DNA of 64,000 nt from Paenibacillus polymyxa (GTDB taxonomy: Bacteria; Bacillota; Bacilli; Paenibacillales; Paenibacillaceae): contig NZ_CP015423.1 in the NCBI RefSeq assembly GCF_001719045.1, positions 4,215,501-4,279,500 on the forward strand. The letters run 5' to 3'. Made by a program: the position numbers and the translations under genes. Positions 163 to 10,973 of this stretch are shown here, in pieces (the stretch's first letter is position 1; each line of letters begins with the position of its first letter). The notes under the pieces were generated by a model that was not told the DNA's origin, made no database searches, and was given only the letters and a program-made list of their open reading frames with translations.

Positions 163-1065
163 TCAGGTTCGGTGTGCCTTGGTGCGCATATGCTTGAGGA
201 CGTCTTCTACAGGCTGGGGAGGAACCTTGTCGATCAAGTCGCCTACCTGGTTTAGTCGTTCCTCAATATTCAGCAAATGGTAGTCAAGTGGTGATACATC
301 TTGCCGTACCTCTTCCCAGGTTAGTGGAGTGGAGACCGTAGCGCCAGGGCGTGCCCGCGGGGTATAAGGAGCGGCCAGAGTTTTCCCCTGATAATGCTGC
401 AAGTAATCAAAATAGATGGCTGTTCCACGATCCTTCTTTAACCGTTCGAGTGTGAACAGATGCGGGTGCTTTTCTGTCACAAACTGCCCGACTAATAGCC
501 CGATGCTGCGAAGTTCATCGAAGGTTATGCCTGTACGGATCGGAACGATAATTTGTACACCTGTAGCCCCGGATGTTTTGGGGACGGAATCCAAACCAAG
601 CGAAGCCAGTACTTCTCCGACAATAGAGGCGGCCTCCATAATACGTGGCTCCACCTCTCTGGATGGATCAAGGTCTATCATCCATTCACAGGGCAGCTTG
701 CTTCCCGCTTCATGTAGAGAGGGGTGGAATTCCAACGCAGCCTGATTACCAAGCCAGAGGAGTTGTGGCAATTTGCCGAGCACGATATATTCAATACCAT
801 CATGCAGAGCGGTTTCAATATAGTCTGGCCGAGGACGTGGGGCATTTTTTTGATAAAAAAAATCACCGTGAATCCCATGTGGCCAGCGGATGACGGTCAG
901 CAGACGATGATGGCAATATTTGAGCAGGAAGGGAGCCAATACCGCGAGCTTGCGAAGATATAGCGCCTTAGTCACGCCTGCTTCAGGCCACAGCGGTTTA
1001 TCTGGGTTTGTGATAGGAATTTCCTGACCTTCAATGGTAATTGTACCTTTAACAGCTTGTCCCAT
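163..1065 (-). CDS. LigD-type primase-polymerase domain protein (NHEJ)
   Basis: This 300-residue protein matches the stand-alone polymerase (archaeo-eukaryotic primase) domain of bacterial LigD. The family fills gaps and adds nucleotides at double-strand breaks held by Ku. Visible marks are the N-terminal ITNPDKPLWP segment, the FFYQKNAPRPRPDYI segment, and the metal-binding pair in WMIDLDPS (about residues 129-136). The ligase and phosphoesterase domains of full LigD are absent, so sealing must come from another ligase. The start is set by AAAGGAGG eight bases upstream. A ku gene on the same strand lies at 10,059-10,973, separated by the whole lasso peptide cluster. Confidence 0.88.
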   Translation of the reverse strand: MGQAVKGTITIEGQEIPITNPDKPLWPEAGVTKALYLRKLAVLAPFLLKYCHHRLLTVIRWPHGIHGDFFYQKNAPRPRPDYIETALHDGIEYIVLGKLPQLLWLGNQAALEFHPSLHEAGSKLPCEWMIDLDPSREVEPRIMEAASIVGEVLASLGLDSVPKTSGATGVQIIVPIRTGITFDELRSIGLLVGQFVTEKHPHLFTLERLKKDRGTAIYFDYLQHYQGKTLAAPYTPRARPGATVSTPLTWEEVRQDVSPLDYHLLNIEERLNQVGDLIDKVPPQPVEDVLKHMRTKAHRT

Positions 1066-1186
1066 AGTGCTATCCTCCTTTGGTTAATATACAGCAAAAT
1101 CTTTATTTACAGGCTGATTGTTGAGCTCATAGATCTACATATGGTTTAACATGAACGTGAAGTGCTGAATTTATCCATCAAAGGGA

Positions 1187-1239
1187 TTGACAAGATACAC
1201 TATGTATCATAAATTTATAATAAAAATACGATATGTATC
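1187..1239 (+). promoter_or_regulatory. Lasso cluster promoter with GATAC-type dyads
   Basis: TTGACA (1187-1192) with a 17-base spacer and TAAATT (1210-1215) is a possible sigma-A promoter. The perfect dyad GATACA-N3-TGTATC (1194-1208) fills the spacer, and a second GATA/TATC dyad lies at 1230-1239. TATAAT at 1216 is also present but is badly spaced from TTGACA. The dyads suggest a repressor site. The regulator is not identifiable from the window. Confidence 0.45.
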
Positions 1240-1278
1240 TATCAAAGTGTCTTGAGCAGAGGTAGAGGAGGAGTTTGC

Positions 1279-2547
1279 TTGATTGAAAAGCAAGGCGGAG
1301 GGCTGGTATTCCTGTTAAGTGTCCCTCGGAGTGGAAGCTCGCTGCTTACCGCCATTTTGCAAAACCATTCCCGCCTGTTTGCCACGCAGGAAATGTGGTT
1401 TCTGCTCAGTTTATATGATCTTCCTCAGTCACATGCACGGCCATATGGAGGAACAGGGATACTTCGGCAATTTTTTGAAGGTATGGTCCCCCCCGACGTA
1501 TTGGAGCAGGCCTCCCGTTCGTATGCACTTGAAATATATAATGGTCTGCTTCAAGGAACAACAGCAGATATGCTTATCGACAAATCCCCGCGTTACTATA
1601 CGGTTTTAGAATTTATAGACCGTTTATTCCCTGCTGCCCGCAGGCTGTGGCTTATCCGGAATCCTTTGGCCATTGTGGCCTCATTCAAAAAGGTTAATCA
1701 GCTACGGCATGGACGTTTTCAACTGCTGGAGGAACTGGGGGGGCCGCATTTTAATATGAAAATGACGGATATTACGGTTGGTTTATTCCGTTATGCTCAT
1801 TATTTTGCTACACCTCATCCACTTGCATACCCGCTTAGGTATGAACAACTCGTATCCAATCCAACGATGGAGATCGAGAAGCTGTGCGATTTTCTGGGAA
1901 TCAAGTATGAGCTGGGGATGGAAAAGTACGGGGACTTTGCGGATACGCCCAAATCCAGTCTTTTTTATAGTATGGGAGCGGGTGATCCCTTCGTAGGAGA
2001 GCATGAGCAGGCGCATCAAGATTCGGTACATAGCTGGCAACACTTGTTGAGTAAAACGGAAATTGAGCTGTATTGCAGAAGCATTGGGTCCCGCATGTTT
2101 AAGCAGCTTGGTTACGCGGAAGAGCTGGAGCAGGCTGAGCAGATGACTGGAGTCCGCTTTGAGGATGAGCCGGATATAGAGTTGCTGAGTCGACGTACAC
2201 AACAATTCCTCCAGCAAAGCGGCTTTGAATGGAAGGCAGCTTATCGGATGCTGGAAGAACAAGATGCAGATAACAGAGAACTCGTGATAAATGCAACCCG
2301 TCATGCTGCATCTCAAGATCCGGCAAGGATGCATGTGGACCAGATCGTGAACGATCGGCGGATTCAATCCCTGGAAAACAGGTTGGCACATAGCTATGAG
2401 GAGCGGAACCGTCTTATCGCTCAGCTCCAAAGCTATCAACGCCCAAATCAAGGTCTCCGATATCGCAGCCTCTTTGCCCGTAAGCTCGGGCGCTTGGCGT
2501 CTGTAGTGTTATCAAGTATAGGAAAAGAAAAAGGGGGAAGAACGTGA
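1279..2547 (+). CDS. Sulfotransferase-family protein of the lasso cluster
   Basis: The protein is 422 residues from TTG 1279, chosen because GAGGAGGAG lies 5-7 bases upstream. The N-terminal LLSVPRSGSSLLTAIL is the P-loop-like 5'-phosphosulfate-binding motif of PAPS-dependent sulfotransferases. LWLIRNPLAIVASF near residue 130 is the 3'-phosphate-binding segment. The C-terminal 130 residues are hydrophilic and helical. The stop overlaps the cyclase start by 4 bases, so the two genes are translationally coupled. It is the first gene of the cluster, and the expected role is tailoring the lasso peptide by sulfation. The substrate is not shown by the sequence; sugar or peptide acceptors are both possible. 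Confidence 0.75.
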   Translation: MIEKQGGGLVFLLSVPRSGSSLLTAILQNHSRLFATQEMWFLLSLYDLPQSHARPYGGTGILRQFFEGMVPPDVLEQASRSYALEIYNGLLQGTTADMLIDKSPRYYTVLEFIDRLFPAARRLWLIRNPLAIVASFKKVNQLRHGRFQLLEELGGPHFNMKMTDITVGLFRYAHYFATPHPLAYPLRYEQLVSNPTMEIEKLCDFLGIKYELGMEKYGDFADTPKSSLFYSMGAGDPFVGEHEQAHQDSVHSWQHLLSKTEIELYCRSIGSRMFKQLGYAEELEQAEQMTGVRFEDEPDIELLSRRTQQFLQQSGFEWKAAYRMLEEQDADNRELVINATRHAASQDPARMHVDQIVNDRRIQSLENRLAHSYEERNRLIAQLQSYQRPNQGLRYRSLFARKLGRLASVVLSSIGKEKGGRT

Positions 2548-4469
2548 GTGCGATTGCCGGAATCTATAGCTTTGGGCATGAGTCCGTATGCACCGAAGAA
2601 GGCGGGAAAATGATGCAAGCTCTGCGAAAATATCCCGCTGACCGCGTATGCGCTTGGTGTGAAGGCTCTATTTTTTTGGGTTGTCATGCCCAGCATGTGA
2701 CCCCGGAATCTGTTCATGAGCGTCTTCCCTTCTATGATGAGCTAAGAGATTTGGCAATCACAGCGGATGCAATTATTGACAATCGTTCCGAGTTGTTTGA
2801 ACGGCTGGGAGTTGAGCAGGAACGGCGACAAGATATCACGGACAGCGAGCTGATTTTGCTGGCATATGACAAATGGGGAGTGGATGCAGCCGGTTATCTG
2901 ATAGGTGATTTTGTCTTTGTTATTTGGGATGCCAAGGAACATCGATTATATGGTGCTCGAGATATGACAGGCAATCGTACGTTGTACATCTACCAGCATG
3001 ACCGAGGATTCGCGTTTAGCACGGTAGTCGCTCCGCTTTTGGCCCTGTCCTCTCTGCGAAAAGAATTGTATGAGCCATGGCTGGCCGAATTTTTGTCCAT
3101 CCGCACCATGCAGGAATCCGTCGATATCGGAACGACCGCATACAAGCATATCAACCAGCTTCCCCCTGCACATTGGTTCACTATGGAGGAGGGAAAGCGA
3201 ACCCTTCATAAATATGCATGTCTGGATGAGGTAGAGACACTGCGGCTCAAAACAGGGGGCGAGTACATAGAAGCTTTCCGCGAGGTGTTCACACAGGCGG
3301 TCACTGCCCGACTACGGACGCATCGCGCTGTAGGGGCTGCCTTAAGCGGAGGGCTGGATTCTGGAGCGGTTGCCAGCTTTGCCGCGCCATCACTGCACTT
3401 GCAACAAAAGCCGCTGCATGCCTACAGCTATGTTCCTGTTCAAGATTTTACAGACTGGACACCGCCTACATTGCTGGCGAACGAACGAAGCTATATTCAG
3501 TCTACGGCTCGCTATGTGGGCAACATTCACGAGAATTATATGGATTTTGAGGGGAAAAGTCCGTTTTCAGAAATTGATATTTGGCTGGAACTCATGGAAG
3601 CACCCTACAAATATTTTGAAAACTCCTTCTGGATCAGAGGTTTTTACGAAAAAGCACAGGAGCACAATGTCGGTGTACTGTTGACCGGGGCACGAGGCAA
3701 CTTTACCGTATCGTGGGGCCCTGCACTAGACTATTATGCCCGGCAGTTTCGTCGTTTGCACTGGTTGCAATCCTTTCAGGGATTGTGGCGGTACAGCAAG
3801 CTTACGGGCAGGCGCATGTCACATCTACTCCCCGTAATGTTGAGAAAAGCGACTTCACTTGAATCTCATTCATGGTTGCGGCGTAGCAATCGAAGTCCCG
3901 TTCCTCCCCTGATTCACCCGGAATTTGCCAAACGGATGCATGTAGAAGATATTCCTGCATTGAGCGGAACAGGTTGGATAAAAAATGCCGATCAGACGAG
4001 AAAAGAGAAGTTCTCAAATTTGGCGATTGCCAACAAAAATGGTGTGGTTGCGACCAAACTTTCACTACGTTATGGCCTATGGGAACGTGATCCGACCGGG
4101 GACAGCCGGGTAATTCGTTTTTGCTTATCGGTGCCTTTTGAGCAGTATGTGCAAAACGGTCGGGATCGTGCCCTCATTCGTAAAGCCATGCGTGATCATC
4201 TACCTGATGATGTTCGGTTGAACCAGCGGGTACGCGGCGTGCAGCCTGCCGATTGGCTACATCGTATGCTTCCTTGCTGGGATACGTTTATGGGGGAGCT
4301 TCAACTGATGTGTCATGATTTACGAGCGGCTGAATATCTCAATATTGAGTTAATAAAGACGGCTATGGCGAAACTTCGCCACCCCCGCCCTGAACAGGCG
4401 TCTGATCCAAATATACGACTACTAATGCATAGCCTGATCGTGTACCGTTTTCTCTGTGGATTGAACTGA
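2544..4469 (+). CDS. Lasso peptide cyclase (asparagine synthetase-like, C protein)
   Basis: This is a 641-residue asparagine synthetase B homologue. The family's lasso members adenylate the side-chain carboxyl at core position 7-9 and join it to the new N-terminus, forming the macrolactam. The N-terminal class II glutaminase-like domain starts MSAIAGIY, so the Cys2 nucleophile of true Asn synthetases is Ser here and glutaminase activity is not expected. The ATP-PPi motif ALSGGLDSGAVAS lies near residue 265. The start is GTG 2544, overlapping the sulfotransferase stop. The precursor gene follows at 4523. Confidence 0.92.
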   Translation: MSAIAGIYSFGHESVCTEEGGKMMQALRKYPADRVCAWCEGSIFLGCHAQHVTPESVHERLPFYDELRDLAITADAIIDNRSELFERLGVEQERRQDITDSELILLAYDKWGVDAAGYLIGDFVFVIWDAKEHRLYGARDMTGNRTLYIYQHDRGFAFSTVVAPLLALSSLRKELYEPWLAEFLSIRTMQESVDIGTTAYKHINQLPPAHWFTMEEGKRTLHKYACLDEVETLRLKTGGEYIEAFREVFTQAVTARLRTHRAVGAALSGGLDSGAVASFAAPSLHLQQKPLHAYSYVPVQDFTDWTPPTLLANERSYIQSTARYVGNIHENYMDFEGKSPFSEIDIWLELMEAPYKYFENSFWIRGFYEKAQEHNVGVLLTGARGNFTVSWGPALDYYARQFRRLHWLQSFQGLWRYSKLTGRRMSHLLPVMLRKATSLESHSWLRRSNRSPVPPLIHPEFAKRMHVEDIPALSGTGWIKNADQTRKEKFSNLAIANKNGVVATKLSLRYGLWERDPTGDSRVIRFCLSVPFEQYVQNGRDRALIRKAMRDHLPDDVRLNQRVRGVQPADWLHRMLPCWDTFMGELQLMCHDLRAAEYLNIELIKTAMAKLRHPRPEQASDPNIRLLMHSLIVYRFLCGLN

Positions 4470-4522
4470 TTCAGATTGATCTGGGCGGACAGTTCGTCAT
4501 TCGTTGGAGGGGAGGTGATGAA

Positions 4523-4651
4523 ATGAGTAAAAAAGAATGGCAGGAACCGACGATAGAGGTGTTGGATATTAGCCAGACCATGGCGGGGAAAGGCTGGAGA
4601 CAGATTGATTGGGTGTCCGACCACGATGCCGATATTTATAATCCAAGCTAA
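4523..4651 (+). CDS. Lasso peptide precursor, paeninodin type (42 aa)
   Basis: This small gene has a strong Shine-Dalgarno (GGAGGGGAGGTGAT just upstream of ATG 4523). The leader has the W-x-x-P-x-I-x-x-L-D-I pattern recognised by RRE proteins and ends ...ISQTM, with the Thr at -2 typical of lasso leaders. The predicted core starts AGKGWRQID, giving an Ala1-Asp9 macrolactam as in paeninodin. The 13-residue tail is acidic and aromatic (WVSDHDADIYNPS) and ends in Ser22, the expected target of the adjacent kinase. Cleavage and ring size are inferred from the family pattern. Confidence 0.92.
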   Translation: MSKKEWQEPTIEVLDISQTMAGKGWRQIDWVSDHDADIYNPS

Positions 4652-4761
4652 TAGATGGTTATACATGCAGCCGATGTTGGACTGGAAGCCAGACAGCTCG
4701 GCCGATAACGATTGAATGAACGAAAATAGCATAATCCATTGGACTCGTATTCAATACAGAG

Positions 4762-4817
4762 CCGTCTTTATTTCTTTCGGGTTAGAGGTTTTGCCCAAGA
4801 AATAAAGACGGGATTTT
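4762..4817 (+). terminator. Stem-loop between precursor and tailoring genes
   Basis: CCGTCTTTATTTCTT (4762-4776) and AAGAAATAAAGACGG (4797-4811) form a perfect 15-bp stem with a 20-base loop, followed by GATTTTTAAG. It lies between the precursor and the kinase gene. Such a partial terminator or processing site would keep precursor transcripts more abundant than the downstream enzyme transcripts. Confidence 0.7.
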
Positions 4818-4830
4818 TAAGGACAGAGGA

Positions 4831-5886
4831 GTGAGTCCTACCGTGCATGACAGGAGTGCAAATGTTAGTTGGACGAAATATACAGCCTTTGGACTCAGGA
4901 TTGCCAGTGAACTGAATCTGCCTGAGCTGCTCCTGGCAGCACCGGAAGCAGTAGAGGATGTAGTCATTCGACAGGCTGATTTGACTGCATGGAGTGGTCA
5001 GCTGGAACAGGCCAATTTTGTGATGCTGGATGAACGATTTATGTTCCAAATACCAGGTACGGCCATTTATGCCGTCAGGGAAGGCAAGGAAATCGAGGTA
5101 AGCATATTCTCCGGGGCCGATCCTGACACCGTGCGGCTATTTGTGCTGGGTACATGCATGGGTGTTCTGCTGATGCAAAGACGAATATTACCTATTCACG
5201 GAAGTGCGGTCGTCATTGGGGGGAGGGCATACGCATTTGTGGGTGAATCGGGTACGGGGAAATCGACACTGGCGGCTACTTTTAGGCAGGCAGGTTATCA
5301 GATGGTTAGTGATGACGTGATTGCTGTAGAAGCTACGGCTTCCTCAGCCATCGTGTATCCAGCTTATCCGCAGCAAAAGCTGGGGCTGGATAGCTTGCTC
5401 CAACTGGAGGCTTTACGGGAGAACAAGCATGCACGCACAATAAACCACATACGGTCCCTAACGGATGGCGATTCTGTAATGCCACAATACAGAGATTTTC
5501 GTATGCTTGCAGATGAGCTGAATAAATATGCCGTACCCGCCGTAGATGAATTTTTTAACGATCCGCTGCCCTTAGGGGGCGTATTTGAGCTAGTGGCAGA
5601 TTCTCCAATCCGTGCGTTGATGCGCGAAGGGGAGCTAGTGGCAGTTACGGAGCAGCCCTTGAACGTTCTGGAGTGCTTGCATACATTACTACAACATACA
5701 TATCGTAGGGTGATTATTCCGCGAATGGGTTTGAGTGAATGGTCGTTTGATACAGCGGCTAGGATGGCTCGTAAAGTAGAGGGCTGGCGGCTGCTGAGGG
5801 ATAGTTCCGTCTTTACTGCGTCCGAGGTTGTACAACGGGTACTTGATATCATTCGTAAGGAGGAAAAGAGTTATGGCAGCCACTAA
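4831..5886 (+). CDS. HPr kinase-like lasso peptide tail kinase
   Basis: The 351-residue protein resembles the HPr kinase/phosphorylase-like enzymes of lasso clusters, of which PadeK of paeninodin phosphorylates the C-terminal Ser. The family core is clear: PIHGSAVVIGG, then the Walker A GESGTGKST (about residues 147-155), then the acidic MVSDDVIAVE strand. The divergent N-terminal 120 residues replace the HprK N domain. The start is uncertain: GTG 4831 has AAGGA 7 bases upstream and GTG 4843 has AGAGGAG 10 bases upstream. The 3' end overlaps the RRE gene. It is expected to phosphorylate Ser22 of the precursor tail. Confidence 0.87.
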   Translation: MSPTVHDRSANVSWTKYTAFGLRIASELNLPELLLAAPEAVEDVVIRQADLTAWSGQLEQANFVMLDERFMFQIPGTAIYAVREGKEIEVSIFSGADPDTVRLFVLGTCMGVLLMQRRILPIHGSAVVIGGRAYAFVGESGTGKSTLAATFRQAGYQMVSDDVIAVEATASSAIVYPAYPQQKLGLDSLLQLEALRENKHARTINHIRSLTDGDSVMPQYRDFRMLADELNKYAVPAVDEFFNDPLPLGGVFELVADSPIRALMREGELVAVTEQPLNVLECLHTLLQHTYRRVIIPRMGLSEWSFDTAARMARKVEGWRLLRDSSVFTASEVVQRVLDIIRKEEKSYGSH

Positions 5887-6175
5887 TCCAGCTAAAGACC
5901 ATTATCGCGTCATTTACGGTGAAGAGGTCTACGTCAGTGATATGGACGGGGAAAAAGTGATGATGAGTATTAACACTGGTAAATATTACAACTTAGGCTT
6001 CACAGGAGGACGAATCTGGGAACTGGCAGAATCCGGTCCTTCACTTGGCGATATCGTAACTGTCCTGACGAACGAATATGAGGTGGACGAGGAACAGTGC
6101 AGACAGCAGGTACATACCTTTGTGGCTGAGTTGGAGCGGGAAGGACTGTTAAAGCTTCTACGGGAGTCGGTATAA
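5873..6175 (+). CDS. PqqD-like RiPP recognition element protein (B1)
   Basis: This 100-residue winged-helix protein is of the PqqD/RRE family. It binds the leader peptide and delivers it to the B2 peptidase and the cyclase. The conserved features are the EVYVSDMDGEKVMMSINTGKYYNLGFTGGRIWEL strands and helix, and the C-terminal helix ending in LEREGLLK. ATG 5873 is preferred over the upstream in-frame codon at 5828 because AAGGAGG lies just upstream and family alignment starts there. The gene overlaps the end of the kinase by 14 bases, and B2 starts one base after its stop. Confidence 0.9.
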   Translation: MAATNPAKDHYRVIYGEEVYVSDMDGEKVMMSINTGKYYNLGFTGGRIWELAESGPSLGDIVTVLTNEYEVDEEQCRQQVHTFVAELEREGLLKLLRESV

Positions 6176-6176
6176 C

Positions 6177-6662
6177 ATGCGGATACAACGGCTTTTTCTC
6201 CTGTCTCCAGAGGTCAGGAGATTGTTGCCGGAAGCTTGGCTGGAGCTGGGATGGGCGAGGCTGCGCCAGCGTCGTTCTTTTGGGGATTACTCAAGGGTTT
6301 GGGGTATATGTACGGAAGAAACTCCATGGCAGTGTGATGTCAGGCAGGAGAAGTCCATTCAGCAGATTTCGCACGCTGTGGAGCTGGCAAGCCGTTATAC
6401 TCCTTGGTGCAGTAGTTGTCTTGTACAAGCCGCTGCGGCGATGACGTTGCTGGGACGTAGAAAACTGGACTGCACGCTGTATCTGGGCACAGCCAAAAAT
6501 GCCGCTGGCCGCTTGGCCGCACATGCATGGGTACGTAGCGGACCGATTTATGTTACGGGGAAACGGGAGATGGAAGCATTTACGGTGGTGGGGATATTCG
6601 GGAGACGTGCTGTGACGGATACAAATACAAAGATGGCAGATAAAGGTAGTTCTTTACTTTAA
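6177..6662 (+). CDS. Lasso peptide leader peptidase (B2, transglutaminase-like)
   Basis: A 161-residue papain/transglutaminase-fold protease that removes the leader. The Cys of RYTPWCSSCLVQAAAA (about residues 75-90), the His of AAHAWV and a downstream acidic residue match the Cys-His-Asp triad of the B2 family. ATG 6177 follows the B1 stop after one base, consistent with translational coupling of the B1/B2 pair that is separated in Firmicutes clusters. The length is normal for the family. Confidence 0.9.
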   Translation: MRIQRLFLLSPEVRRLLPEAWLELGWARLRQRRSFGDYSRVWGICTEETPWQCDVRQEKSIQQISHAVELASRYTPWCSSCLVQAAAAMTLLGRRKLDCTLYLGTAKNAAGRLAAHAWVRSGPIYVTGKREMEAFTVVGIFGRRAVTDTNTKMADKGSSLL

Positions 6663-6707
6663 CGCGATGAGACAAAAGAAGTCCAAAGAATCGAAGGAGA
6701 AGAATGC

Positions 6708-8204
6708 ATGCCCACCAAGTCTGTTTTGGAACTTGCGAATTGGAATGAGGATCAGGAATTAACGTTGTTACTCTCTCTATTGGGGAAAGACTTTTCTCAT
6801 TGGCAGGATAAGACTGCTGCTACCCAGCTGCGTGAGATGGATTGGGTCCGCTTTTTACGTCTGACCGAGCACCATCGAGTGGTACCTACGGTGTATCTCC
6901 AACTGAAAACATTGAATCATCCGTTCATTCCCGCAGAATTGTTGCGAAACCTTCAAGCGCAATATCATCGAAACACGCTTCGCATGCTCCATCTTCAAGC
7001 AGAAGCTGGACGTCTGACCAGGCTGCTCATAACTCATGGAATCCGTGTGCTTATGCTGAAGGGTCCTGCTCTGGCGCAGCAATTGTACGGGGATGTTTCT
7101 CTGCGTACCTCCAAGGACATCGATTTACTCATTGCCCCTGACGATATGGATGAGGCTGAGCATTGGATGAAGGAAGCCGGATATGCGCCCAAGAGCGGAG
7201 AAGTGCGTGTCCTTGGCAGTTGGAAATGGAAGGACCATCATACATCCTACCTCCATCCGCAAAAACGGGTAGAGATAGAGTTGCATTGGCGTCTTCACCC
7301 GGATGGGGGTGGGGAACCCTCTTTTGACGAGCTGTGGAGCTGTCGGCAAATGGGTAAAGCTACAGGAGCCAGTCGGATGGTACCGTTGGCACCTGCCGAC
7401 AACAGGACTGCGATGACGTCCTGTATGTATACGCTTGGCAGCGAGCATCAATTTCTGTACTTGAGTGCGCATGGTGCGCGTCACGGATGGTTCAGGCTGC
7501 GCTGGCTGGTTGACATCGACAGGCTTGCGGTATGTGCTGTCGATTGGGAGGCGCTACTGCCGATGATGCGCCGCTACGGGGGCCTGCCTGCTGGCGGGCA
7601 GGCCTGGGCGCTCGCCACTGCGCTGTTGGGTACGCCGATACCAGAGCCGATGCGTCCGGTATCGGCTACCCGGCAGGCGCACAGGCTCGCGCTGAGCGCG
7701 CTGGCCTTCATGCAGGCCAGCGTTCCCGCACCATACCCGATTGCCCACGGGTCGGGTACAGGTAGGCTTGCTCCATCAGAGCTGCTGCACAGCAGAGCTT
7801 TGGCGGAGCAAGCGGAGGCCGCCCCTCCGGATGGCGGTCCTTCATTGTGTAGTACCTGTGGCGAAGCAGCCATGCTTGCCACCAGTGGCGTTCTCAGCAT
7901 CACAGAAGGTGCCAGTAACGACGACTATAGCCCGATGAGCACCGCTACCAGTTGTGCCCCCATTACTCCAGCTGTCGCCTCCAGCCAAGTCATGACCAGA
8001 AACACGGCGGCTGCCCATCAGCCGGTCAGCCGCACTTACTTGCTTTCCTTAAAAGAGCCAAGACACAGACTAAGTTACCTCATCAGCCGTTTATTTCCTT
8101 CTACGGGGGATTCGGCCGTTTTTCCACTGCCTCGCCAGCTGCATTTTTTGTATATCCCTTTACGTCCATTTCTTTGGCTGAAGCGGCGATTTTCAAAGCA
8201 CTGA
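6708..8204 (+). CDS. Nucleotidyltransferase-like lasso tailoring protein with a low-complexity insertion
   Basis: The N-terminal 300 residues match the uncharacterised nucleotidyltransferase family found in Firmicutes lasso clusters. They include the GLKGPALAQQLYGD-like helix followed by RTSKDIDLLI, the DxD metal site. The last 60 residues, with LSLKEPRHRLSYLISRLFPS and a Pro-Leu-rich C-terminus, are also typical of the family. Between them (about residues 350-440) is a Ser/Ala/Thr/Pro-rich stretch with no recognisable fold. A homologue in the pseudomycoidin cluster was, as I recall it, linked to sugar addition on the phosphorylated tail. The role here is inferred. Confidence 0.75.
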   Translation: MPTKSVLELANWNEDQELTLLLSLLGKDFSHWQDKTAATQLREMDWVRFLRLTEHHRVVPTVYLQLKTLNHPFIPAELLRNLQAQYHRNTLRMLHLQAEAGRLTRLLITHGIRVLMLKGPALAQQLYGDVSLRTSKDIDLLIAPDDMDEAEHWMKEAGYAPKSGEVRVLGSWKWKDHHTSYLHPQKRVEIELHWRLHPDGGGEPSFDELWSCRQMGKATGASRMVPLAPADNRTAMTSCMYTLGSEHQFLYLSAHGARHGWFRLRWLVDIDRLAVCAVDWEALLPMMRRYGGLPAGGQAWALATALLGTPIPEPMRPVSATRQAHRLALSALAFMQASVPAPYPIAHGSGTGRLAPSELLHSRALAEQAEAAPPDGGPSLCSTCGEAAMLATSGVLSITEGASNDDYSPMSTATSCAPITPAVASSQVMTRNTAAAHQPVSRTYLLSLKEPRHRLSYLISRLFPSTGDSAVFPLPRQLHFLYIPLRPFLWLKRRFSKH

Positions 8205-8224
8205 CTCGATAAGGAGTGTGCATT

Positions 8225-10036
8225 ATGGTTCACCTGCGATTATATATGACAAAGCTGTATAGCGTGAACGGCGGTGCGTTATTTCTCAATATTGGATGTA
8301 TGATCATTGTTAGCCTGCTGGAGGGTTTTGGCATTTATATGCTTGTTCCTATGCTGGCGGCCATCGGCGTATTTGTCGGTCATTCAGGGATGCCATTTCT
8401 GTCTGATGGATTGGATCATTTTTTGGCGTTCATTCCTAAAATCTGGCTGTTGCCGGGGATGTTGATGGTTTTTGTAGTGCTGCTTACAGGGCAGGCTTTG
8501 CTTCAGCGTTACCAAACTATCCTGAATTCGCGGATTCAGCAGCGTTTTATGCGTTCTCTGCGTATAGACGTGTACACTTCCTTTATGAAGGCGCAGTGGG
8601 CTTTTTATTTGCGTCAGCGTAAATCTGATTTTAGCCATGTGATGACGACTGAGCTGGCGCGTGTCAGTCAGGGAACGAATTTGCTTCTTCAACTGACTAC
8701 AGCCGTCATGTTTACGCTGATCCAGATTGCGCTGGCTTTTTGGTTATCCCCCTCTTTAACCGGACTGGTATTTCTGAGTGGATTGGGGCTGTTTGTCGTG
8801 TTCCGCCGCTCCATTCGAAATGCCAAACAATTAGGTGATCGTACGACTGAGCTGTCGCAGGTTTATTTTGCTGGAATTACGGATCACATGAACGGCATGA
8901 AAGATATTAAAAGCAATCTGTTGGAAGCGGCGAATATCCATTGGTTTCGCTCCCTGACACAACAAATGGAGGATAATACGACCCAATTTGTCCGGCAAAA
9001 TGCGTCCACACAGTTTTTTCATCGTACAGCGGCAGCTGTTTTTGTCGCTTGTGTCATATTTATATCGTTGCAGTGGTTGCATGTTACATCTGAAAAACTG
9101 ATTGTGTTGATTCTTATATTTTCCCGCTTATGGCCCCGATTTGCCCTTATTCAAGCGAGTCTGGAATACATCATGTCTATGATCTCCGCTTTTGAAAGTG
9201 TCACCAAGGTGCAACAGGAGTGCGAAGCTTTCTCCGATCCATCGGTATTCAATCTATCATCTGCAGCTGTACGGCAACCCCTGTCCCTTCGTCATGGAAT
9301 TGAATGCAGCCATCTGGGTTATCGCTACGATGGTGCAGCAGAGCCTGCGCTGCATCGTATCAATTTGTTCATACCCGCCCGGGGAATGACAGCCATTGTA
9401 GGGAAATCGGGAGCAGGTAAAAGTACAATGGTCGATGTCCTGATGGGTTTTTTACGTCCAACTGGGGGGCAGATTACAATAGACGGGCTTGTTCTGGACG
9501 ACGAATTGTTGCCCCAGTGGCGGCAGTCGTTTGGCTACGTGTCACAAGACCCATTTTTATTTCATGCGACTGTCCGCGAAAATTTGATGCTGGCAGATAA
9601 GGATGCTAGTGAGCAGCAACTATGGGAGGCGTTACATTTTGCAGCCGCAGACAGCTTTGTATCCAGACTGCCCGAAGGGCTGGACACGGTCATTGGAGAT
9701 CGCGGGATTCGTCTGTCTGGAGGAGAACGTCAACGGCTAGTATTAGCACGGGCTGTCTTGCATCATCCTCCAGTACTTATACTAGATGAAGCGACAAGTG
9801 CGCTGGATGGTGAGCATGAAGCCGCAATTCAGGCAGCACTGGAACGGATGAAAGGTCAAATGACGTTGATCGTCATCGCTCACCGCCTGTCAACCATCAG
9901 ACATGCAGATCAAATTGTCGTACTGGATCAAGGCGAGGTCATACAGCAGGGGAACTACCGCCAACTGGAACAAGAGGAGCGGGGGGCGTTCAGTCAGCTA
10001 CTATCGTATCAAAGCAGTCTCACCGCCACCCCTTAG
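8225..10036 (+). CDS. Lasso peptide ABC exporter (D protein)
   Basis: This half-size ABC exporter has 603 residues. The N-terminal 310 residues contain about six membrane segments. The ATPase domain shows Walker A GKSGAGKST (about residue 395), Q-loop VSQDPFLF, signature LSGGERQRLVLARA and Walker B VLILDEATSALD. ATG 8225 is preferred to GTG 8216 because AAGGAG (8211-8216) is then 8 bases away. It is the last gene of the plus-strand lasso operon and is expected to export the mature peptide and give self-immunity. Confidence 0.9.
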   Translation: MVHLRLYMTKLYSVNGGALFLNIGCMIIVSLLEGFGIYMLVPMLAAIGVFVGHSGMPFLSDGLDHFLAFIPKIWLLPGMLMVFVVLLTGQALLQRYQTILNSRIQQRFMRSLRIDVYTSFMKAQWAFYLRQRKSDFSHVMTTELARVSQGTNLLLQLTTAVMFTLIQIALAFWLSPSLTGLVFLSGLGLFVVFRRSIRNAKQLGDRTTELSQVYFAGITDHMNGMKDIKSNLLEAANIHWFRSLTQQMEDNTTQFVRQNASTQFFHRTAAAVFVACVIFISLQWLHVTSEKLIVLILIFSRLWPRFALIQASLEYIMSMISAFESVTKVQQECEAFSDPSVFNLSSAAVRQPLSLRHGIECSHLGYRYDGAAEPALHRINLFIPARGMTAIVGKSGAGKSTMVDVLMGFLRPTGGQITIDGLVLDDELLPQWRQSFGYVSQDPFLFHATVRENLMLADKDASEQQLWEALHFAAADSFVSRLPEGLDTVIGDRGIRLSGGERQRLVLARAVLHHPPVLILDEATSALDGEHEAAIQAALERMKGQMTLIVIAHRLSTIRHADQIVVLDQGEVIQQGNYRQLEQEERGAFSQLLSYQSSLTATP

Positions 10037-10058: not shown

Positions 10059-10973
10059 TTAAGTTTCTTTACGTTTGGCAGTGCTTCTTTTCTTTTTGAC
10101 TGGAGTCGGAGAGATGTTCTCGCCTGCAACAGCCTGTTGTGCTGTTGGGGCTGCTGGTTTACGCGCAGGGCGTTTTTTCGCAGCAGGGCCGGGATCGGTA
10201 ACGACAGGTTGCACTGCCTCGATGCTGGCCTGAAGGGCGGCCATTAAATCTACTACGTTGGTCTGAGGTTGTGTTGGGGCGATTCGCACCTCTTCACCAG
10301 CCACTTTATGCTGAATGAGATCCAGCAGACGCTCGCGGTACTGATCCGTATACTTCGCTGCATCAAAAGGTGTAGATAGCTGCTCGATCAGCATTTTTGC
10401 CATGGTCAGCTCCTTATCTTTAACCTCCTCCTGCCCCGGTAAGTTAGGAACTTGAGCAATGGGGCGAATTTCATCGGGGTAAAACATCGTCTCCACCGCC
10501 AAACATTCATCCAACACCCGAATAGCCGCCAGGCTGCTTTTAGAGCGGATGGAGATTTGGGCAATCCCGATTTTCCCGGTATCCTTCATCGCATTCATGA
10601 GCAGCTTATACGCATTGGAGCCAGCTTGATCCGGGGATAAATAATACGTTTTCTGAAAGTAAATCGGATCAATTTCCTGCAAATCCACAAAATCCAAAAT
10701 GACAATATTTTTATCCGCTTGTCCGCTAACTTGCTCCAGTTCCTCCTTGTCGAACATGACAAATTTTCCTTTTTCATATTCGTAGCCTTTTCCAATTTCC
10801 TCCCATTCGACCTCCTTGTCACAAACGGGACACTTTCGTACATAGCTAAGTGGGCTTCCACACTCCTTGTGAATATAACGCATGGAAATGTCCTTATCCT
10901 CCGTCGCTGAAAACATTTTAACGGGCACATGAACCAGCCCGAAGCTGATTGCGCCTTTCCAGACCGTATGCAT
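10059..10973 (-). CDS. ku: Ku homodimer DNA-end binding protein
   Basis: A 304-residue bacterial Ku. The start MHTVWKGAISFGLVHVPVKM and the Cys-rich segment GSPLSYVRKCPVCDKEVEW are diagnostic. The C-terminus is Lys/Arg/Pro/Ala-rich (AAKKRPARKPAAP...KKKRSTAKRKET), as in Ku proteins with basic DNA-binding tails. It bridges double-strand ends and recruits LigD. It is convergent with the lasso exporter (22-base gap) and has the same orientation as the LigD-Pol gene at 163-1065. Confidence 0.95.
   Translation of the reverse strand: MHTVWKGAISFGLVHVPVKMFSATEDKDISMRYIHKECGSPLSYVRKCPVCDKEVEWEEIGKGYEYEKGKFVMFDKEELEQVSGQADKNIVILDFVDLQEIDPIYFQKTYYLSPDQAGSNAYKLLMNAMKDTGKIGIAQISIRSKSSLAAIRVLDECLAVETMFYPDEIRPIAQVPNLPGQEEVKDKELTMAKMLIEQLSTPFDAAKYTDQYRERLLDLIQHKVAGEEVRIAPTQPQTNVVDLMAALQASIEAVQPVVTDPGPAAKKRPARKPAAPTAQQAVAGENISPTPVKKKRSTAKRKET

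Follow-up and report, generated by a model that had tools for sequence, protein, structure and literature searches.

A Paenibacillus polymyxa lasso peptide cluster with a putative sulfation step and an adenylylsulfate kinase gene linked to it in many relatives

A 64,000-nucleotide stretch of the Paenibacillus polymyxa chromosome (contig NZ_CP015423.1, positions 4,215,501 to 4,279,500; hereafter the window) carries at 1279-10036 of its forward strand a complete lasso peptide cluster of the paeninodin family, in which a sulfotransferase gene, S, heads a single-direction array of the order S-C-A-K-B1-B2-N-D. We propose that the cluster encodes a paeninodin-family pathway with a putative sulfation step and consider a sulfated lasso product likely, a reading better supported because S is linked to lasso clusters across the bacterial family, because a gene for adenylylsulfate (APS) kinase lies near most copies of S, and because S has a fold like that of a tyrosylprotein sulfotransferase (TPST). 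APS kinase makes 3'-phosphoadenylylsulfate (PAPS), the sulfate donor. From the linkage, the APS kinase, purifying selection on S, its fold and a motif in the accompanying cores we infer that the acceptor is the lasso conjugate. The genes, with functions as predicted from profile matches, are as follows.

1279-2547, forward strand: S, sulfotransferase of TPST/CurM-like fold, TTG start, 422 aa (PF13469, 91.6 bits, cut-off 27)
2544-4469, forward strand: C, lasso cyclase, asparagine synthetase-like (PF00733, 94.1 bits, cut-off 21; GATase_7)
4523-4651, forward strand: A, precursor with leader MSKKEWQEPTIEVLDISQTM and core AGKGWRQIDWVSDHDADIYNPS (NF033524, 61 bits, cut-off 27)
4831-5886, forward strand: K, HPr-kinase-like tail kinase, alternative start GTG 4843 (PF07475, 26.9 bits, below the cut-off of 33.3)
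5873-6175, forward strand: B1, PqqD-like leader-binding protein, the recognition element (RRE) of ribosomally synthesized and post-translationally modified peptides (RiPPs) (NF033536, 110.9 bits, cut-off 80)
6177-6662, forward strand: B2, transglutaminase-like leader peptidase (NF033537, 104.3 bits, cut-off 33)
6708-8204, forward strand: N, nucleotidyltransferase-like protein of PsmN type (PF14907, 225.6 bits, cut-off 31.2)
8216-10036, forward strand: D, ABC exporter (PF00005, PF00664)

Linkage of the sulfotransferase to lasso clusters and to an APS kinase

By profile match and conserved motifs S is probably a PAPS-dependent sulfotransferase: P16-R17-S18-G19, R127 and S135, which we take to be its PAPS-binding motifs, are invariant in 34 sequences, and the gene is under purifying selection. 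Its TPST-like fold is shared at about 20% identity with TPST1/TPST2 and the CurM/OLS sulfotransferase domains, from which S differs by an extra C-terminal helix; where TPST has an Arg two residues on (Arg101), S has Trp40. Translation is better begun at TTG 1279 than at 1252, given the AGGAGG upstream and relatives that start MIEKQG or MIDKQG, and position 1187 falls inside the predicted promoter.

The precursor family is present in 239 of the family's 394 genomes and S in 104 of the 394 (68 of 75 in the genus), one of these by a weak match (G284) and one as a broken gene (G097); with both and one fragment excluded, there are 108 S places in 102 genomes. Of 120 stretches fetched, 80 were picked mostly for S and 40 lacked it, and the resulting 77 S-bearing loci (the window plus 76 fetched) represent the degraded G097 and 76 of the 108 S places, the other 32 lying outside the sample. 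C and K are present in all 77, B2 in 76, B1 and N in 74 each and D in 72; among the 56 loci retrieved via S alone, a set overlapping the first, C and K recur in 56 of 56 and an APS kinase gene lies within the stretch in 37. S outside a lasso cluster was not seen in either set, and the profile matches together with C and K in 77 of 77 loci rule out a chance or misread cluster. That S is a mere operon passenger acting on an unrelated molecule is very unlikely in view of this linkage, its coinheritance with the cyclase (r 0.92) and the linked APS kinase, although S can be lost while the remaining cluster stays.

An APS kinase gene occurs within 25 kb in 84 of the 108 S places, at a median of 7.6 kb from S, and a further search of nine genomes added G012, bringing the count to at least 85; broken or truncated remnants adjoin the clusters in G309 and G322. 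Its usual place in the fetched loci is directly after D, on either strand (111 bases from D in G082), and it falls inside the fetched stretch in 44 of 77 loci with S and in 0 of 44 without, the S-less locus of G381 having one about 3.5 kb past D, outside the stretch. The window genome encodes a single APS kinase (C1:73437) and an ATP sulfurylase and can therefore make PAPS.

Several observations weigh against the proposed sulfation step. In the window's own clade, which accounts for 12 of the 21 remaining S places, the APS kinase gene lies outside the cluster, and nine further S places have none nearby (in G031 the contig is too short to tell); the contig of G096 ends inside the cluster, so that its status cannot be told. 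Four genomes, G376, G378, G381 and G390, lack S and any PF13469 or PF00685 match; 8-9 kb from their precursors there is nevertheless an APS kinase gene, and in G376, G381 and G390 the cores keep T12, D15, D17 and Y19. Because these three retain both, the core motif and the APS kinase are not kept by S alone. The association of core residues with S, moreover, rests on few independent tree events. As for the window's clade, G092 (L077), with an S 48% identical to that of the window, shows the order ligD, S to D, APS kinase, ku at the same chromosomal site; this suggests that the clade formerly had an APS kinase gene there and then lost it.

The fate of S in the window's clade bears on its role. 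In G086 it is gone by a near-precise deletion (ligD-C spacer of 231 bases vs. 1478), in G091 the spacer is 326 bases, of which about 110 are an S remnant, and in G097 S is degraded: three different scars, each with the promoter stretch and the other cluster genes intact. Position 19 of the core is Phe in G086 and still Tyr in G091 and G097. Because three genomes lost S in this way, it is, as judged from gene content, dispensable for the rest of the cluster, an accessory tailoring step.

The peptide and the candidate acceptors

The window core has 22 residues, with a predicted A1-D9 ring, a C-terminal Ser and a leader Thr at -2. The reading of the cluster as one for a paeninodin-like lasso, proposed in the preliminary description of this DNA, is thus borne out by the sequence and the NF033524 match, as is its statement that genes for a sulfotransferase, a nucleotidyltransferase-like protein and a presumed tail kinase share the operon. 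Paeninodin itself (P. dendritiformis) belongs to the same precursor family and likewise has a C-terminal Ser and a tail kinase, and its ring reportedly also spans nine residues, but its core is different. A protein-database search with the precursor returned only 10 near relatives; one P. polymyxa precursor, P0122, differs from the window core at two residues (K6, L18).

In the pathway we propose, the leader would be held by B1, after which K would phosphorylate the C-terminal Ser22; next, B2 and C would cut off the leader and close the Ala1-Asp9 ring. To the phosphate N would attach a hexose, as its counterpart reportedly does in pseudomycoidin; S would then transfer one sulfate from PAPS, and D would export the product. 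A peptide hydroxyl (Ser12 or Tyr19) is about an even prospect as the sulfate site, the tail hexose is somewhat unlikely, and another site or none is distinctly unlikely.

To compare residues, we assembled 79 S-linked cores from 74 loci (54 unique) and 45 unique cores from 44 loci without S. The latter include L175, which has P12 and no cyclase nearby (44 unique cores without it); the core of L073, a locus that lost S, matches S-linked cores exactly and stands on both sides of the count. L072 is counted as S-bearing in spite of its degraded S, its core also occurring in loci with full-length S, and L124 yielded no core. From the S-bearing loci, fifteen cores not placed within the 4.5 kb after S were set aside: ten of GGPNG type with G12, four of EGKG type (L103, L104, L105, L108) with S/T12, and the second core of L111 with Y12. 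All 54 unique S-linked cores have D9, the C-terminal Ser and a Ser or Thr at position 12; of the 45 S-less cores, 5 have S/T12 and 38 have Q12. D15 and D17 occur together in 53 of 54 vs. 5 of 45. Position 19 holds Tyr in 44 of the S-linked cores vs. 4 of the S-less ones, and Thr in 7 vs. 1. The five S-less cores with S/T12 come from genomes within S-bearing groups (G086, G091, G381). On the cyclase tree (116 rows, with L086, whose cyclase is too short, and L175 left out) five changes of S are needed, and 40 S-less loci with AGPG-type cores form one group, at whose base stands L129, with S, an AGPG ring, T12, D15 and D17. Because changes on the tree are few, Fisher values for the core residues overstate the evidence, and the motif as proof of a site is weakened by the S-less genomes that retain it.

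Tyr19, one of the sites named in the preliminary description, would become a sulfotyrosine whose setting, an acidic tail of the form D-x-D-x-Y, resembles that in TPST substrates, TPST preferring acidic surroundings of its Tyr. The fold of S, the prevalence of this Tyr and of D15 and D17 behind S, and the Phe19 of G086, where S was deleted, are consistent with it. Against it stand Val19 in G096, which has a full-length S, Thr19 in the seven unique cores, neither residue in two more, Arg or Val in two database precursors, which may or may not accompany an S, and a Tyr retained in the S-less G091, G376, G381 and G390. A Tyr anywhere past the ring is present in 45 of the 54 unique S-linked cores, so that not all offer the acceptor expected of a tyrosylprotein sulfotransferase. 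Tyr19 as sole site is unsupported, and as the acceptor it is, taken singly, unlikely.

The loop above the ring offers Ser/Thr12, which is present in every unique S-linked core, including that of L129 with its AGPG ring, and the predominance of Q12 in cores without S points the same way. CurM and OLS act on an aliphatic hydroxyl and are close to S in fold. The residue is, however, retained in the S-less G086, G091, G376, G381 and G390 and could be structural, and we regard it, too, as an unlikely acceptor when considered alone.

A further candidate, a sub-case of the proposed sulfation with another acceptor, is the hexose that N would place on the phosphorylated C-terminal Ser; it is compatible with all 54 unique S-linked cores, each of which ends in Ser. 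Of the three S loci without N in the stretch, those of G319 and G308 belong to genomes with N at a distance of about 3 and 19 kb from S, respectively, and the third (L119) is a short contig, so no examined S genome is known to lack N, and the notion that S functions in clusters without N (L110, L111) is withdrawn; N without S is seen in 13 of 44 S-less loci. The sole NCBIfam match of S is NoeE, at 130.5 bits vs. an equivalog cut-off of 500, and NoeE sulfates a sugar of Nod factors. We nonetheless hold sulfation of the hexose to be somewhat doubtful.

Were the product sulfated, phosphate, sugar and sulfate would stand together on one tail, which to our knowledge no other lasso peptide shows, and S would rank as a bacterial sulfotransferase that tailors peptides and whose substrate is small and genetically encoded. 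Only tentatively do we propose a Paenibacillaceae family of sulfated lasso peptides whose clusters would provide their own sulfate donor, with a TPST-like S in front, an APS kinase beside the transporter, a conserved [ST]12-x-x-D-x-D-x-[YT]19 loop and tail as target and phosphate, hexose and sulfate on one peptide. The linked APS kinase gene could serve as a genome-mining handle for sulfated RiPPs.

Relation to known systems

The combination of S, K and N is already known, whereas neither the linkage to an APS kinase gene nor the S/T12-DxDx-Y/T19 motif was found in print. HPr kinase and sulfotransferase genes in some lasso clusters were noted in 2014 (PMC4289311, in the accessible part), and the Firmicute clusters of Zhu et al. 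2016 are described in PMC8498205 as starting with a putative sulfotransferase gene, with a gene for a nucleotidyltransferase placed between B2 and D. Sulfotransferase and nucleotidyltransferase genes are likewise reported, in the sections available of PMC11381294, for strain APC 4171 and, citing Zhu, for P. polymyxa CR1, whose cluster, compared by description only, resembles that of the window within the same genus; the same sections give 45.2% precursor identity between paeninodin and a CR1-type strain. The cluster of pseudomycoidin (B. pseudomycoides) also combines K and N, the peptide's tail being phosphorylated and hexosylated by an N that puts one or two hexoses on the phosphorylated peptide, but no sulfotransferase is mentioned in the accessible text (PMC8498205, PMC9266682). 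RaxST, according to the portion available of PMC9484694, is a bacterial RiPP tyrosine-sulfation enzyme, acting on the RaxX peptide, which unlike the window's product is not a lasso.

No sulfated lasso peptide or test of S was found in the open-access literature, subscription papers being mostly outside this scope, nor any lasso peptide together with an adenylylsulfate kinase; the lasso modifications named in the accessible part of a 2026 paper (PMC13352647) do not include sulfation, and no word starting with "sulf" occurs in that of PMC9266682. The novelty claimed in the preliminary description accordingly applies to the product, which would be new, but not to the gene combination.

Flanking genes and minor observations

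The cluster is flanked by a ligD polymerase gene (163-1065, reverse strand) and by ku (10059-10973, reverse strand), so that genes of nonhomologous end joining border it, a site common to the window's clade and G092; no plasmid match was found. Protein matches put the window in or close to P. peoriae/polymyxa, the best one being P0001 (95%), which bears the name P. peoriae. Upstream of S lies one further feature.

1185-1240, forward strand: likely promoter/operator; a TTGACA overlaps the dyad GATACA-n-TATGTATC, and a related ATATGTATC follows

From the TTGACA and the dyads a regulator binding site is likely here; the stretch is kept in 15 of 15 window-clade loci (the window and L061-L074), including three without intact S, and was not found in L077. 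The S and C reading frames share 4 bases, and C scores 350.5 bits against the NCBIfam lasso cyclase model NF033535, below its cut-off of 525.

Ten loci (L106, L107, L109, L114, L115, L120, L121, L125, L137, L140) carry a second, Asn/Gly/His-rich core, GGPNG[VI]xPDKNGKG..., that apparently belongs to a neighboring lasso cluster. The S-linked core of L111 (at 3937) ends in a long Gly-rich tail (AGLGSKYVDYVTADDY...GGGSGGGPSAS), and L175 (at 6412) joins a paeninodin-type leader to a His/Pro-rich core (KGPGHNWPPHHPHPHP...), and the 14 kb covered there yielded no cyclase. The S-less G376, G378, G381 and G390 (L170, L243, L244) have four precursors each. In N, roughly residues 310-440 (window 7640-8040) are of low complexity, and outside the window's near clade the alignment of N covers only about 300-350 of 498 residues in most relatives.
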